A DNA stretch of 64,000 nt, from assembly GCA_026874595.1 (NCBI GenBank), contig CM049308.1, forward strand, positions 25,260,367-25,324,366. The letters run 5' to 3'. Both the position numbers and the translations under genes were made by a program. A model generated the notes under the pieces. It was not told where the DNA came from, made no database searches, and was given only the letters and a program-made list of their open reading frames with translations. This document shows positions 13,491 to 38,630 of the stretch, piece by piece. Origin of the DNA: Sipunculus nudus (lineage: Eukaryota; Annelida; Sipuncula; Golfingiida; Sipunculidae). Numbering within the stretch: the first letter of the stretch is position 1; every line of letters starts with the position of its first letter.

Positions 13491-14390
13491 TTTGGATGTT
13501 TTGCAGCAGTTACGGAGAATGTTCGGGGAACGCTATCTAACTGCGTAGCAAAAATGTTTTGTTAGTAGTTCTGCTAAGAACAAGAGTATGAATTAAAAAT
13601 TATGCTCAGTGTTTCACTTGCGATTGTAGATCCCTGCTGTGTGAGTGGTTGGTTGGCGTTGTCGTGTTGACAAGTTCGTTTTCAGCGTGTCGTGAGCGAT
13701 AATCCAGGATGAAGAATAACAAAAATAGCACGTTGTCTCTGATGTAAAATCTGATGTGATGCCCTATACCATGTCCGTTACACCGCTCAGGCAATAACTA
13801 GGGTTTCTACGCCGCAGTTTTGCCTCTTCGGGTACCCCCCCTCTTTGCACTGAGGTCGCCAGAACTGACACGCCAGCCAGCCAGGTCCGGCCCGCCCTCG
13901 TTGACCGACCACCACCGGGGAATCCCCCAAGTAAACCCGGGAGCCTGAGCCTAGCAACCAGCCAGTAATGTCCGAGCGTCACCGGCCTACCCCTGGACTA
14001 CCGTGAGTCCTGCCCTGAGCCTTGTCCCTTTCGACCAGGTACGGTGTTCGTTCGATCTGAGCCTTTTCCGGAGCCTTTCCTGGTTCTCGTGCCATCATGC
14101 TTGAGCCTTGTCCCTGCTGATCCTGACCGGACCCCCGGTTTTTACGTCTCGGAGCCTTGTCCCTGATCCTTTCCGGATCCCCTCAACTTTTATCCACCAA
14201 ACGGCTGGCTCTTTAGGGCCTGGTTCCATACTGTCGGCAACGGACTGGCCTACTCTTCTATCGAAAAACAGTATGGGATCTTTTACGTGCCCATCCCCTT
14301 CTGGACACGGGACCGCCATTTTACGTCCTCATCCGATGGACGGCCCGTATTTTGCTTTTGCAGTCGGGCGCTGCAGAGCCCGGAGCCTTT

Positions 14391-17180
14391 CTACCCCTCC
14401 CCCACTTTTTCTAGTGGGGTGATGATACTGGGGTTCCGTTTGCCACTGATTTTTTGCCAATCGAGCCACGTTTTGAGGTCTTTATAGAACTTCTCTTGCT
14501 TCACCTTTTCGACATAGCCTTTGCTCAACCTTAGAATGTGGTCTTTCACATATTCTATTTCTGCCTTCTCGTGAAGCACAGATACTCGGGTTCGAGGCGG
14601 GAGTCTCAAGGCCGTCCTTAAGGCTCTGTTTTGAAGCCGTTGAAGTGTCTTAATGTGGTGCTCTTTGGCTGAGATCAGGGCTATGCAGCCGTACATCATA
14701 ACCGGTCTGATCCAGGCTTTATAAAGGTATATCAAACTTTGGGTTGACATGCCCCCTGTCCCTGCTTTTAGCACTCTTAAGCAGTTTAGTCTCGCTTTGA
14801 CCCTCTGTTCGATATCCTTTATATGAGCCGCCCATGTGAGTCTTTTATCAACCGTCAGCCCCAGGAATTTTACCTGGTCTGTGAATTGAATTGGTTCTCC
14901 GGCCAATTTCAGTTCTGGCGCTTTGTCGGCCTTGCTGCCTTTCAGGTGCCTACCGAATTTGCAAGCCTGCGTTTTTGTCGCATTGACTCTAACCCGCCAT
15001 CTGGCGCACCACTCGGTCACTTCGTCTAGACCTGCCTGTAGCCTGGGTGCTGCTCTCTTGCTATGTGTCCATAGCGCAGTGTCATCCGCAAATTGGCTCG
15101 TCGCCCCCGTGCGGACTCCCCCTTTCTCGGACAGGCTGGGCATGTCGTTGACGTATATGACGTAGAGCAACGGGCTGAGAGCTGAGCCCTGTGGTGTGCC
15201 AGCAGCGGGTTCGATCTCGTGCGACTTAGCGTCACCTACTCTGACCCATAGCTTCCTATCTCTTAGGAAGGATGAGAGAATCCTCACAATGCGAGCCGGC
15301 AGTTTAGCCTGCGTTGCGATCTTGTACCTTAGACCATCCCGCCATACTGCGTCGAAGGCTTTCTCGACGTCTAGGAATACACCTATAGTATCACAAGATC
15401 GCTGCAGGCATTGCCCTACCGCCTGTGTCAGCCTGAATAGTTGGTCATTTGTTGACCTGCCTTCACGGAACCCGCTCTGATTCGGGTTAAAGTACCCCGC
15501 TTTTTCCAGGTGTCCGCTGATCCTGCCAGTTATTATGCGTTCCAGCACTTTTCCTAGAATTGGCAGTAGGCTGATGGGTCGGTAGCTTTTCGGTAGCGAG
15601 CGATCCTTTCCCGGCTTCGGGATCATGATTACGCTGGCTCTTTTCCATGCCCTCGGGAAGTACCCCAGTTTTAGACACGCATTGAACACTGTCGTGAGCG
15701 CTTCCAGCCCTTCCTCCGGCAGCTTGATCAGTACTTCCCTGGTGAGGCCGTCCTCCCCCGGGGCTTTCCTGCTTTTGAGTTTTTTCAGCTTCTTGCTGAT
15801 TTCCGCTTTTGTGATCGCTCTCAAAAGCGGCTCATCCTCTGCTATTTGAGCGTAGCAGCTCTCCTCCTTTGCCAGAGGTGAGTAAAACTCTTTTTCGCCT
15901 TGCCTTACATACTGATCAACCTCCTCCTGTGTTCGGTCATCAAACTGGGGTCCCGTTGGGACCTGGTGTATGTTCCGGAGCGTCTCCGCGAACAAGTCAG
16001 CCTTGTCCTTTTCCGTACTAGCCACCGATCCCATCGGGCCTATTAGGTCTGTCGTTCCGACCAATGGCTTGTTCAGCGAGCCAGTATACTGGTGGACCTT
16101 TCGCCAGAATTCGCCCACGGATATTCTGTGGTCCATACTGCTCGTGAACTCGTACCATTCTGCCTTTTTCTGGGCTTTGATTGCATATTTCACCTTCCGA
16201 CTAATAGCGTTGTATTGGGATTTTAACTCCTCAGTCTGGAGTTGGATCTGGAGCCTTCTAATCCGCCTTCTTTCCCTTACAAGCGCTTTAATCGTGGGGG
16301 TGAATGACCACCAGTTACGGTTCTTTCGTTCCGCCATCGGGCACGCCCGATCTAGGCAATCTCTCATCTCCGAGGTCAGCTTATCGACCAGGCTGTCGAT
16401 TCCCTCTGGGGTCGATGGTTCAGCAATGTTTCGGAGCCTGTCTGCCAGTTCATTTTGGTATAGTCGCCAGTTAGCCTTTCTCCAAGGTCTAACCATCCTC
16501 GGCGGCTTCCTGTTTGCTCTCCAGTCGAGCTCTAAATGAATTGGCATGTGATCGCTGCCTACATCTTCCCCTACATAGAATTTGCTGACCAGGCCTACTT
16601 CGGGTGAGACTATTGCCAGATCGAGTATGTTCGTACTGCCTGTCGTGGGGTTGACCCTTGTTGGGCTCCCATCGTTCATTATCACCATACCGTTTCGGTC
16701 TATGCAATCCATCAGTGCCTTTCCGTTAAGATTCGAGGCTCTGCTGCCATATGAGGTGTGTGGGGCGTTTAGGTCCCCCAGCACCACATAGTGGCTGCTG
16801 TTCCTCTTTATCCTTTCGAATAGCTGGGCCCGGGGCCGTAACTGGGGTGGATTGTAATACACTATTACATCGATTGCCGGGTCCCCGCTGCTGACTGGTT
16901 CGACTCTAATCGTTAGAGCCTCTACATCGAGCCTTCCTAGCCAGTTTGTCTGGCGGTATACCAGGTTCTCTTTAATTAAGAGAGCCACTCCACCACCCAT
17001 GTTACCGTCTGGCCGTCCCCTGTGTAGCAGGTTATAGCCAGTGAAGGATACGTTTTTGGTCAGCTTGGTCTCGCTGATGGCCATGATGTCTACTGAGTGC
17101 CTGTGGATATAGTTGAGGATCTCGTTCCTCCTACCGTACAGGCCGTTCACGTTTACATGACACAGACCAAGCTTAACCAT
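14391..17180 (-). CDS. LINE ORF2: AP-endonuclease and reverse transcriptase
   Basis: 929 residues, uninterrupted. The endonuclease, about 1-220, has NVNGL (10-14), ISETKL (35-40), GDLNAPH (135-141) and SDHMPI (209-214). The reverse transcriptase, about 465-760, has KAPGEDGL, YRPISLLPILGKVLE, QSGFREGRSTNDQL, FLDVEKAFD, GTPQGSALSPLLY and the catalytic FADD (696-699), then KFLGLTVDKRLTW. The C-terminus has the Jockey-type IRPVMMYG and LQRLQNRALR segment. All core catalytic residues I looked for are present. The protein nicks target DNA and primes reverse transcription there. It is probably translated by reinitiation after ORF1, since its ATG is eight bases from the end of ORF1. Confidence 0.9.
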   Translation of the reverse strand: MVKLGLCHVNVNGLYGRRNEILNYIHRHSVDIMAISETKLTKNVSFTGYNLLHRGRPDGNMGGGVALLIKENLVYRQTNWLGRLDVEALTIRVEPVSSGDPAIDVIVYYNPPQLRPRAQLFERIKRNSSHYVVLGDLNAPHTSYGSRASNLNGKALMDCIDRNGMVIMNDGSPTRVNPTTGSTNILDLAIVSPEVGLVSKFYVGEDVGSDHMPIHLELDWRANRKPPRMVRPWRKANWRLYQNELADRLRNIAEPSTPEGIDSLVDKLTSEMRDCLDRACPMAERKNRNWWSFTPTIKALVRERRRIRRLQIQLQTEELKSQYNAISRKVKYAIKAQKKAEWYEFTSSMDHRISVGEFWRKVHQYTGSLNKPLVGTTDLIGPMGSVASTEKDKADLFAETLRNIHQVPTGPQFDDRTQEEVDQYVRQGEKEFYSPLAKEESCYAQIAEDEPLLRAITKAEISKKLKKLKSRKAPGEDGLTREVLIKLPEEGLEALTTVFNACLKLGYFPRAWKRASVIMIPKPGKDRSLPKSYRPISLLPILGKVLERIITGRISGHLEKAGYFNPNQSGFREGRSTNDQLFRLTQAVGQCLQRSCDTIGVFLDVEKAFDAVWRDGLRYKIATQAKLPARIVRILSSFLRDRKLWVRVGDAKSHEIEPAAGTPQGSALSPLLYVIYVNDMPSLSEKGGVRTGATSQFADDTALWTHSKRAAPRLQAGLDEVTEWCARWRVRVNATKTQACKFGRHLKGSKADKAPELKLAGEPIQFTDQVKFLGLTVDKRLTWAAHIKDIEQRVKARLNCLRVLKAGTGGMSTQSLIYLYKAWIRPVMMYGCIALISAKEHHIKTLQRLQNRALRTALRLPPRTRVSVLHEKAEIEYVKDHILRLSKGYVEKVKQEKFYKDLKTWLDWQKISGKRNPSIITPLEKVGEG

Positions 17181-19266
17181 GACGTCCCCCCACCGACTTC
17201 TTAAAACCGTTGCTACCGGCCTTCTTGGATCTGGGTTGCCTATAGCTACCCTTATCCTTTTTGGTTGGAGCGTTCCTGGCTGTTACCGATCGAGCCTTCG
17301 GCTCCTCACGGTCCTTGTCCGTTCCCCTGTCAGACAGCGCCGTCCACGACAATTCTAGACCTAGGTGTCTAGTAGCCGACTTTTTCACCACCGTTACGGC
17401 CCGTTCTCTGGGCTCGTCGACTTTAGCCAACTTCAGCGTTTCTGTGATCACTTCACAGAGAAACTTTATCAGTTTTTCTGGTTTGATCACTAACGGAGCC
17501 TGGTTTTCCTCCACGGCTTGCTCCTCCGTCGGAGCTGCCCCCTTGTCCGTATCCTTGCGGTTTTTGGCCGCGGCCCGCCCTCCGGCCAGCCTGGTGGACG
17601 TGCTACCGCTAGCCACGCCCTGCCCCCTTTCGGGAGCGGGAGCCTTCTGGGTCCTATCAGCCTCTGAGGCCGCGGGCCCCCGGGAGCCACCGGCGATCTT
17701 GGCATAGGTTAATCCCGTCTGTAGGGTATCACCACCATTTCCTTCTGCTTTTTTACTGTAGGGTTTTCCTACTTTGTCTTGTTTTGCCGATATCGGCCTC
17801 TGGCGGGCACCTTTGAAGGCTGTACAACCCTTGTACATCGCCCTGTGGTCGCCCCCACAGTTTGCACATTTCGGCTTGCTCTTGTCGGCCGCCCTTCGAC
17901 AATCTTTGGCATAGTGGCCTGCCTCGCCGCAATGCCTGCACCTGCCAGCCTCAGTGCATGTTTTGGCCGTGTGCCCGAACTGGTAGCAATTCAGGCACTG
18001 AATCGGCTCAACAGCCTTTCGGAAAGCCTCGCAGCGTATAAGCTCGCTCCCATAGCGGAACCCATGCTCGAGTGCCTTCTTGGCGCTCTCGCCCTGTTGG
18101 AAGTGCACTAGTACCTTCCATACCGGTTTCCTCCCGTGCCTGAGCCGCACGACCTCTTTGGCTTTTAGGCCCTGTTCTGTGAGCTCCGTCATTATCTCCT
18201 CCGTTGAGATATGCGGACTCACTCCCTTTGCCACCACCGATGTCAATCTTGTGCCCTTTGGTTTAGCTTGCTTGCTGCCCCGTGCAAGCTCTACTACTAC
18301 CTTGGGCCCAGTCTTGATCAGGGGGCGCCAGTCGGGCCTGGCCTCCCTAGCCGTTTCGGGGAGCGTGACTACCACTACTCCCTTATCTTTCTTGACCGTA
18401 CAGGTGGAGGTGCCCGTGCACTCCGTCACCAGCCTGTTAAGCCTTCTGCTGTTCTGTCTGAGGTCTACTGGTAAGCCCCTTACCCAGTATTTCCTCAATT
18501 CCTGGCTCTGAACCGGGCCCTCGACTTCTCGATCAGCCACCGTACCTCTCGGCTGGCTGTTCGCCGCGCTCCCTGACCGTACAGGCGAGCTCGGAGCCGT
18601 GGTGTCGACCGCCGTTTGATTATCCCGGGTCTCCAGTCTAGTGGGCGACCCGCTATCACCTGTGCGGTCGGCTTTTGAGGGCGTCAGTTCAGACCCCCTG
18701 GTTTGGGAATTCCCGCCAGTATGACCCGGGTTCGATCTCTCGGTCGGGCTCGGGGTCAGTGTCCTGAGTACCATCGGCCACTCAGGCGATCCCACATCGA
18801 TAATTAGAGACCCCGACCGTTCGGGCGTCTCTACCTTGTCCGGCCCCGGGACCTCCGGGGTGACCACTTCCGGGGTATCCGGGGTTGCCACCACCCTGGA
18901 TGACTCGTTGCTTTTCACCGGGGAGTCATCAAATAGTTCGAAGCTGGCGTCCCCGGTCGGGGTGGCCGGTGCCGAGCTCGGGGAACCCAGCGTAGAGCTC
19001 GGCGCGTTCGTTACCTCGTGTAACGGACCAACGCCCGCTGGGTTCAGTGGGGCCGATCCCGTGATCGCGCCCCGGCCCTCCGTCTCGGTCAGCTCGGCCG
19101 CCGCCGCGCTACCGATGCTCTCCGTGATTAGCCCCGCTATCATTCGTAGGGCGTGAGGCCCGTGCCTCGCTGCCTGTTGCAGCCCCCCTGTGATCTGGGT
19201 TAGACCCGGGACCACTTCTCTTTCTCTTTGAGAAAGCACTAACAGCCTAGTTAGCGCTTCTGCCAT
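17173..19266 (-). CDS. LINE ORF1: nucleic-acid-binding protein with three CCHC knuckles
   Basis: 697 residues. Residues 1-240 are Ser/Thr/Pro/Gly-rich and probably disordered. A Jockey/I-type ORF1 core follows from KYWVRGLPVDLRQ, about 270-415. Zinc knuckles come next: CLNCYQFGHTAKTC (CX2CX4HX4C, about 420-435), CRHCGEAGHYAKDC (same spacing) and CANCGGDHRAMYKGC (CX2CX3HX6C). The C-terminal 200 residues are Lys/Arg/Ala-rich. The knuckle set is typical of Jockey, I and R1 ORF1 proteins, which bind element RNA. Its stop TAA lies inside the ATGGTTAA that also starts ORF2, so the ORFs overlap by 8 bases, an arrangement compatible with termination-reinitiation. Confidence 0.85.
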   Translation of the reverse strand: MAEALTRLLVLSQREREVVPGLTQITGGLQQAARHGPHALRMIAGLITESIGSAAAAELTETEGRGAITGSAPLNPAGVGPLHEVTNAPSSTLGSPSSAPATPTGDASFELFDDSPVKSNESSRVVATPDTPEVVTPEVPGPDKVETPERSGSLIIDVGSPEWPMVLRTLTPSPTERSNPGHTGGNSQTRGSELTPSKADRTGDSGSPTRLETRDNQTAVDTTAPSSPVRSGSAANSQPRGTVADREVEGPVQSQELRKYWVRGLPVDLRQNSRRLNRLVTECTGTSTCTVKKDKGVVVVTLPETAREARPDWRPLIKTGPKVVVELARGSKQAKPKGTRLTSVVAKGVSPHISTEEIMTELTEQGLKAKEVVRLRHGRKPVWKVLVHFQQGESAKKALEHGFRYGSELIRCEAFRKAVEPIQCLNCYQFGHTAKTCTEAGRCRHCGEAGHYAKDCRRAADKSKPKCANCGGDHRAMYKGCTAFKGARQRPISAKQDKVGKPYSKKAEGNGGDTLQTGLTYAKIAGGSRGPAASEADRTQKAPAPERGQGVASGSTSTRLAGGRAAAKNRKDTDKGAAPTEEQAVEENQAPLVIKPEKLIKFLCEVITETLKLAKVDEPRERAVTVVKKSATRHLGLELSWTALSDRGTDKDREEPKARSVTARNAPTKKDKGSYRQPRSKKAGSNGFKKSVGGRHG

Positions 19267-19423
19267 CCTTTTCAGCGCCCTCTCACTGAATTTCCCAGTT
19301 CTACTCCCTTTCGGGCAGTATGCTAGGTTTCTGATCCTTTCGCCCCTTTTAGGTATTCCCTTTTTTAGGGGTATCTCGGGCTTTTCCTCTCGCCCTTTTT
19401 AACCACGATCTTTTGTCGGGTCT

Positions 19424-20015
19424 TATTATTTTATTCCCGTTCGGGCAATAAAATAATGATGGTTTTCCTCACTTATAATTCCTATGCAGGCAATTATAAT
19501 TTTCCGGCCCCTGATTTTCGCCCCGTTTATTCGTATCTATCCGTGAGCCAGCGAGCCGAGAGCGGGCTCTATTCAGCAGTTTTACCCAGAGCCGGGTTTC
19601 AAACTGTGAATTTTTGTGGTCGGTCGGGCCGAGAGCTAGCCTTGAGCCGAGAGCGGGCTCAGTGAATGAATTAATTAACTGTACCGAGAGCGGGTACCAG
19701 TTAATTAGATCGTTTGTAGGTTTCACCTACCCCAGAGAGCCAACAGAGAAAATTCAAAAAAATGATACTATACCTGATTCCCCTATGGTAAACCTTAACT
19801 ATAAGTCTAAACCCTAGCTAAAATACACCTGTTGCAGGGATGATAGCACTGAAAGAGAAATAATAGTCCTAATGAGGACTGTTGTGTGTGGCTCCGGCCT
19901 CCAGACAAGCTAATCACTAGTGTGAATAACCTGACTGGAGAGCAAGGCGCCAGTTAGTCTGCCGAGTCTCAGCGTCTCTGATTCCACTTGGCTAATTAGA
20001 CGACGGTCTAATTAG
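19424..20015 (-). promoter_or_regulatory. Serial hairpins in the LINE 5' UTR
   Basis: Plus-strand coordinates of the stems: 19,425-19,457 (15 bp, one bulged base), 19,473-19,499 (11 bp, one bulge), 19,553-19,569 (5 bp, loop GAGAGCG), 19,577-19,606 (6 + 4 bp with an internal loop), 19,643-19,661 (6 bp, loop GAGAGCG), 19,672-19,707 (14 bp, one bulge, loop GAGAGCG) and 19,992-20,015 (10 bp, 4-nt loop). The first, second and sixth share an AT-rich lower stem, a single bulged base (G in the sense RNA) and a short GC-rich upper stem. Three hairpins have the same 7-nt loop on different stems. Function unknown. Confidence 0.7.
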
Positions 20016-20061
20016 AGCTGCTCCCAGGCACGTCCGTTCTCCACGGCTGCTGGGTGTGCAA

Positions 20062-20180
20062 TGATGTGATGCCCTATCCTGAAAAGGCTGCTTATAAAAC
20101 CTGTCTTCTGGACCAAAAGGGGGTGACCATTGGTCAGCGAATAATAACCAATCAGAGAAAAGGAAGGGGCAATTAGCTCC
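20062..20180 (-). promoter_or_regulatory. Promoter-like segment in the A1 repeat (CCAAT boxes, TATA box)
   Basis: On the minus strand, going downstream: a GC-box-like GGGCGGAGC near 20,180, an inverted pair of CCAAT motifs (20,129-20,133 and 20,148-20,152), TTTTATAAG at 20,091-20,100, then a start expected about 30 bases further, near 20,065. The same motifs occur in A2 (about 7,195-7,320). This is the expected site for the YR element's own promoter. The nested LINE begins at 20,061. Confidence 0.45.
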
Positions 20181-20581
20181 GCCCATGTTCAAGCTGATGC
20201 CAGCTGTGACTACACCCGTCATTGTCAGACAGGTTTGCAAGCAGGGGAGGGGGTTCCAACGGAAATTACGTAATACCCAAAGGAGGCCCCCATAAAGGCA
20301 TTAGCCAGAACATACTTGAAGTAAAAACAATTTGAGTGTCTGTTATCAAGATTAAAATACCCGACAAGCTTGATATCCAATTAGTACATCTGTGAGGGGG
20401 AAATACAAGGATCAGCTATATATGTGTAGTAGTTAATTAGCTATAATGGACTGATTACAAAGTCCAGGAAATAGAAACCTTACTTGCTGGTCCAAAAGTT
20501 TACCATATTAACAACTTAACAATTAACAGAAACAAAATCATGATATTTTGATTAAAATAGCCCTATGTTATGCATAGACCT

Positions 20582-20636
<55 letters not shown>

Positions 20637-36712: not shown

Positions 36713-36835
36713 GAACATATTCATGTAAAAATTTTTTCATTAAAATCAAGTGGTAGAGTGCCTTGTGATACGTACATATTTGTCTGCAACAGATTTCCGA
36801 CTGATTATTCCTTGGAATTTGAACAGGTTTCTATC

Positions 36836-37065
36836 CAAGTGTGTAGGCTATCAGTGCGTACGAAACGAGTGTGTAGGCTATTCACGTAACGAGTGTGTAG
36901 GCTATCAGTGCTTACGAAACGAGTGTGTAGGCTATGATCGTAACGAGTGTGTAGGCTATCAGTGCTTACGAAACGAGTGTGTAGGCTATTCACGTAACGA
37001 GTGTGTAGGCTATCAGTGTTCACGTATCGAGTGTGTAGGCTATCAGTGTTCAAGTAACGAGTGTG
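36836..37065. repeat. 54-bp composite minisatellite (GAGTGTGTAGGCTAT core), unit A
   Basis: Alternating 30-bp (core + cagtgcttacgaaac) and 24-bp (core + tcacgtaac) units, together 54 bp. In the plus frame it reads ECVGYQCLRN-ECVGYSRN, and in the minus frame DSLHTRYVNSLHTRF. Both strands are open, which argues for simple repeat expansion. A 156-codon plus-strand frame (36,750-37,220) spans it. Confidence 0.75.
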
Positions 37066-37079
37066 TGCCTTTATCGCAT

Positions 37080-38630
<1,551 letters not shown>

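Follow-up and report, generated by a model that had tools for sequence, protein, structure and literature searches.

A repeated bulged-hairpin plan in the 5' leader of a Jockey-type LINE from Sipunculus nudus: possible docking sites for the ORF1 protein

The 5' leader of a full-length LINE in the genome of Sipunculus nudus contains an array of small hairpins that share a common plan. On the sense (minus) strand, each has a lower stem that varies, a single bulged base in its 5' arm, a 3-bp CCN/NGG upper stem, and a 4-nt loop. Individual hairpins have been lost from one subfamily or another (H5 and H8 from subfamily A, H2 from subfamily D) and the array itself has been retained. Hairpins that are numerous and individually dispensable, and that keep their bulge, core and loop although the lower stem is free to vary, are the pattern expected of protein docking sites. 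Our preferred explanation, held tentatively, is that the leader RNA offers a protein a redundant array of small hairpins to bind; the likeliest partner would be the ORF1 protein (ORF1p), and binding would mark the RNA for assembly. A sequence-only reading of the window, by which we mean the whole 64,000-nucleotide stretch analysed here, had singled out three of the hairpins (H1, H2, and H3) and had proposed selection on their structure, for example for ribosome entry, packaging by ORF1, or protection of the 5' end. Binding by ORF1 appears to be the likeliest of these.

By its domain content the element is a two-ORF LINE of the Jockey type, with an endonuclease and reverse transcriptase in ORF2 and a CCHC knuckle in ORF1 (Table 1). 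The two frames overlap by 8 bases. Three CCHC-like motifs can be made out by eye in ORF1, of which Pfam calls one as a zinc knuckle. The knuckles are preceded by a weak RRM-like stretch, and a PRE_C2HC match at 355-399 falls below the cut-off. The structural model of ORF1 has an RRM-like order of strands and helices, but it is a poor model (mean pLDDT 45). Elsewhere in the window, a TA microsatellite is present upstream of the LINE at 20584-20633, and an open frame at 36750-37220, in which a NECVGYQ-like unit recurs, resembles a tandem repeat read in translation.

Table 1. Features of the LINE and of its leader hairpins, in window positions.
Feature	Position	Strand	Description
Full-length LINE	13768..20061	-	16-bp target-site duplication ATAGGGCATCACATCA at 20062-20077 and 13752-13767
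ORF2, endonuclease-reverse transcriptase	14391..17180	-	929 aa; Pfam RVT_1 1.2e-37, Exo_endo_phos_2 2.9e-19
ORF1	17173..19266	-	697 aa; Pfam, one zinc knuckle
5' leader	19267..20061	-	~795 nt, ATG-free
GGACGTG, candidate DPE-like downstream promoter motif	20029..20035	-	~+27 to +33
H3 (named in the sequence-only reading)	19672..19707	-	9-bp lower stem, G bulge, 5-bp upper stem
H3 inner part	19681-19697	-	GTA-c-CCG-CTCT-CGG-TAC; carries the shared loop
H4a	19643..19661	-	TGAG-c-CCG-CTCT-CGG-CTCA
H7	19626..19642	-	Imperfect class-2 relative, loop GCUCU
H9	19584..19597	-	ACCC-GGCTCT-GGGT, GCUCU in loop
H4b	19553..19569	-	GAG-c-CCG-CTCT-CGG-CTC
Site of extra stretch in subfamily B	~19540..19541	-	~87 extra bases with H8 and H5, lost from the window's subfamily
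H2 (named in the sequence-only reading)	19473..19499	-	TTATAATT-g-CCT-GCAT-AGG-AATTATAA; 8 bp, G, 3 bp
H1 (named in the sequence-only reading)	19425..19457	-	ATTATTTTATT-g-CCC-GAAC-GGG-AATAAAATAAT; 11 bp, G, 3 bp
H6	19352..19377	-	Decayed in the window
H0	19302..19320	-	TACT-g-CCC-GAAA-GGG-AGTA; ~35 nt ahead of the ORF1 start

All three hairpins of the sequence-only reading were recovered with the same ends, and each has, as it had described, a single bulged G on the 5' arm, a short upper stem, and a lower stem of 8-11 bp. They stand far above shuffled sequence. When a lower stem of at least 8 bp was required, the sense strand of 19267-20061 gave four matches, H3 being scored twice since its bulge has more than one possible position. 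Dinucleotide shuffles gave 0.003 on average, and none of 300 reached four. The same search of the leader found no hairpin with the bulge on the 3' arm. With lower stems of at least 4 bp, two matches were present in 115 kb counted over both strands outside the LINE. Within the 6.3-kb element, matches with the CC core are restricted to the leader; dropping the CC requirement adds one 5'-bulge and one 3'-bulge match in ORF1, at ~17612 and 18420. In 46 copies of the family, scanned for lower stems of at least 3 with G-U permitted there and in the third pair of the core, the bulge is on the 5' arm in 193 plan matches and on the 3' arm in two.

The loop reported as common to three hairpins with different closing stems, GAGAGCG on the plus strand (CGCTCTC in the RNA), is indeed shared by H4b, H4a, and the inner part of H3, the last of these being the core of H3 itself. 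Two things had been missed: H0 is a fourth hairpin with a bulged G, and the shared-loop hairpins fit the same plan when drawn with a bulged C before CCG-CTCT-CGG. This drawing is one of those possible and is a choice, since RNAfold favours a 7-nt loop there. The joint plan, with either a G or a C bulge, was drawn up post hoc after inspection of the hairpins; it describes six hairpins, all of them in 19302-19697, and the rest of the window's minus strand has no other. H0 is present in less than half of the predicted ensemble. The array is arranged in two blocks. Upstream are the hairpins with a GCUCU loop (class 2: H3, H4a, H7, H9, H4b, and H8), and downstream are those with the core g-CCY-GNAN-RGG (class 1: H5, H2, H1, and H0, together with H6, which has a bulged a).

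A query with the leader returned 40 copies including that of the window, which with the 39 others makes up 32 distinct leaders; later additions (L078-L081, L083, and L086) brought the total to 46, some of which cover only part of the leader. There are three copies in subfamily A (the window, L009, and L010), four in B, three in C, and 34 in D, and L083 and L086 are old singles. Three loci were dropped for lack of a match (L082, L084, and L087), two for lack of a plan hairpin (L126 and L127), and one because it is unlike the copies of its own family (L128); L085 is a small degenerate piece. No relatives were found in viral contigs. Many of the subfamily D copies come from two clusters, so the 46 copies are not independent; many of the 46 are near-identical. 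These dense clusters, at C3 12.95-13.27 Mb and C14 19.17-19.30 Mb (many of L017-L047), are arranged in part as head-to-tail repeats every 6.32 kb and are intermixed with a related LINE family. They could be centromere- or telomere-like LINE arrays of the kind described for Drosophila. At C50:17348-20002 a LINE ORF2 is found, oddly, within a reported open frame of 6783 aa.

The relatives add two plan hairpins that the sequence-only reading had not seen, H5 (TCGTA-g-CCT-GAAY-AGG-TACGA) and H6, which is intact in L021 as GATATACC-a-CCT-GAAA-AGG-GGTATATC, as well as the related H8. H5 and H8 are in the stretch missing from subfamily A; subfamilies C and D have a stretch similar to the H8/H5 segment of B, at other lengths. 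The proposal of selected hairpins had been made to depend on their presence in most full-length copies, and here the outcome is divided. H1 is present in 44 of the 46 copies, H0 in 42, and H5 in 40, but H2 is found in just 10, because subfamily D (34 of the 46) lacks it, and the inner stem of H3 has mismatches in subfamily D. Exact matches to a 17-mer from H1 number 45 genome-wide. Of these, 44 fall on leader matches of the family, and the other, C9:53038333, is the relative L083.

Shorter motifs are less informative. An 11-mer from the shared loop was tried as a genome-wide hairpin marker and rejected: it has 172 matches, against 109 for the reversed control, and among the 100 of these that were listed, 42 are outside the family, at 37 loci where the paired flank is at most 4 bp throughout. 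The flanks were checked in the register of the plan; one reached 4 counting G-U and one was cut at 4 bases. Without longer stems at these loci, the motif by itself marks nothing. A class-1 13-mer has 380 genome matches, against 247 for its control. Two of the 37 loci, L088 and L089, belong to an unrelated repeat element with copies of CCACTCTCGGG / CCCGCTCTCGGG about 160 nt apart by eye, and we take the shared motif as coincidence.

Which protein might read such hairpins? GCUCU occurs eight times in an 806-nt piece of the leader against 0.8 expected, and five of these are within the loops of described hairpins. Polypyrimidine-binding proteins prefer CUCU. A host RNA-binding protein of this sort could therefore be the reader, with effects on stability, export or translation, and the different loops of the two classes could even mean two proteins. 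We consider a host protein an unlikely reader: the class-1 core is not rich in pyrimidine, and a related LINE family that is exposed to the same host proteins in the same genome has, as far as seen, no array. This control family was found by endonuclease profile (L129-L135). Its kinship is judged from leader pieces of 36-81 nt with 75-86% identity in the first part of the leader, and AGTCCT-NNNN-AGGACT is common to both; the rest of the control leader is A-rich. Neither plan hairpins nor GCTCT were found in the control leaders (L131-L135 to the presumed ORF1 start, L129 and L130 in part), and L131-L135 have one ATG each. The array thus looks special to the present lineage.

Selection on the hairpins, as the sequence-only reading proposed, is borne out for H1 and H3. 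Between subfamilies A and D, these two differ at 3 of 69 sites, compared with 39 of 210 in the leader outside the hairpins (both from the window and L018) and 97 of 384 fourfold sites in ORF2 (the window and L056). The rate of change in H1 and H3 is thus about one-sixth of that at fourfold sites (Fisher p 2.7e-5; against the non-hairpin leader sites, p is 0.003), and the conservation of these two hairpins is firm. The 69 sites cover H1 and H3 alone because subfamily D has no H2. Since both hairpins were named by a reader blind to the relatives, the rate test is unbiased by choice. In the wider hairpin set, compared over eight rows, 28% of paired columns are variable and 64% outside; the hairpins beyond the named three were chosen once relatives had been inspected, which inflates their apparent conservation. 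Nor is conservation unique to hairpins, since the 5' end of the leader is conserved as strongly as H1. Bases ~7-50 of the element are identical between subfamilies A and D, and the candidate promoter motif GGACGTG falls inside this stretch. A similar downstream motif is reported for jockey, Doc, G, I, F, SART1, and TRAS1 in the available text of PMC4748587.

Selection for shape over sequence has less behind it, and the covariation in the hairpin stems is suggestive only. In a table of pairs from 12 chosen rows of the 46 copies, 94.2% of 1016 cells are paired, and this falls to 34-45% when the partner is slid by 1-3 columns. Both sides have changed in 5 of 94 pairs, compared with 3.3 in shuffles, of which 61 of 500 reach five. 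The covariation score is 0.052 against 0.044 and is reached by 2 of 500 shuffles, a score that related rows inflate. Compensatory change is clear in H3 (A-U to G-U to G-C), in H8 (U-A to A-U), and in H6 (C-G to U-A). The wobble test for the folding strand gave no bias, with 17 G-U against 16 A-C one-sided pair types.

Weak covariation and a wobble test without strand preference are what conserved DNA might give, as might the nearly dyad-symmetric core. The palindromes would then be sites for a transcription factor or chromatin protein, with the hairpin shape as a by-product. This we judge improbable. DNA sites would not be expected to have arms as long as 11 bp that are unrelated in sequence and still match each other, nor a one-base asymmetry that keeps to one arm in 193 of 195 matches; the promoter-like motif, moreover, is ~320 nt upstream. 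Template switching can create new hairpins. That the palindromes are neutral and unselected products of such switching during reverse transcription would agree with hairpin sets that differ by subfamily and with the many copies that lack H2, but it is very improbable in view of the slow change of H1 and H3 relative to fourfold sites and the fixed bulge side and core sequence.

The leader also avoids ATG. None is present in that of the window, where 13.6 are expected from base content, and 1000 dinucleotide shuffles have a mean of 9.1 and never fewer than 2. Seven other triplets were counted in the leader, and depletion is nowhere as strong among them; CAT occurs 9 times against 12.2 expected, and in the 3' UTR there are 7 ATG against 9.1. 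Stop triplets in 19267-20061 number 46 in all frames. Among the 32 distinct leaders, 28 are free of ATG; those with ATG are L016 and L021, which are diverged copies with 2-3 each, and L047, the 5' part of which is unlike the others, and L015 was left out of the scoring because of a break inside its leader. Avoidance of ATG over ~800 nt makes cap-dependent scanning likelier than ribosome entry. An internal ribosome entry site for ORF1 is the least credible of the explanations. In its favour, the leader is long and more stably folded than 20 shuffles (z -4.1), but an entry site would tolerate upstream AUGs (an indirect test), the isolated hairpins are weak (-3.7 to -13.6 kcal/mol), and the 900-nt leader of human L1 is described as cap dependent in the available text of PMC2881922. 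Protection of the 5' end is likewise unlikely, because the hairpins are about 350-760 nt downstream of it.

How, then, might an array of docking sites for ORF1p function? An internal promoter at +1 probably drives RNA synthesis, and ribosomes would scan from the cap through the ATG-free leader. The hairpins would be expected to fold in the RNA within the cell, and with energies this low a scanning ribosome should pass them unless they are bound. The protein would contact the CC/GG upper stem together with the adjoining bulge and loop, with the lower stem as a mere holder. ORF1p, of the CCHC type, is the likeliest to dock, and in doing so it may mark the RNA for RNP assembly in cis. Bound ORF1p could slow scanning, and the RNA would move from translation to packaging. 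To our knowledge, how LINE proteins choose their own RNA is open for most families. A repeated plan beside ORF1, with slowly changing H1 and H3, supplies defined short RNAs on which ORF1p binding could be assayed, and the related family in which no array was found is a natural control.

Bulged hairpins of this kind are familiar from other systems. In the MS2-type operator, a small hairpin has a single base bulged from its 5' arm, a short upper stem, and a 4-nt loop. The leader hairpins match it in all three respects, a resemblance in the way of working only. The dispersed packaging signals of RNA viruses, in the accounts available, also consist of several degenerate hairpin copies. Unlike these, the LINE is not a virus, the bulge is G or C, the upper stem is a 3-bp CCN/NGG, and the copies are found in the 5' leader. 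A more specific version of the ORF1p explanation, which we regard as rather doubtful, is a phage-like multi-copy RNA operator. On this view, ORF1p would use two tuned sets of bulged hairpins within the AUG-free leader to pick out its own RNA in cis and to divert it from translation into packaging. If true, this would give the cis-preference of a Jockey-type element a basis in sequence.

The iron-responsive element has a bulged C on the 5' arm, as do the class-2 leader hairpins. These differ from it in their 3-bp upper stem and CUCU loop, and an Rfam search of 14000-20300 returned no family at E<=1, including the iron-responsive element and ribozyme models. This also separates the leader from the structured 5' RNA and HDV-like ribozyme of R2, which it resembles, from what the available text describes, as structured RNA on the 5' side of a LINE. 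No comparable hairpin array in a LINE leader was recognised in the portions of the literature at hand. SART1, of the R1/Jockey type, is similar in its gag-like zinc knuckles in ORF1 and its ORF1-dependent RNP assembly; its three zinc knuckles reportedly function in the specific packaging of mRNA (PMC4120745, available text, where no hairpin array is named). In the 3' stem-loop of stringent-type LINEs, as the accessible accounts describe it, an element-specific RNA stem-loop is likewise the recognition mark for a LINE protein; in the present element the hairpins are instead in the 5' leader, in many copies, and close to ORF1.
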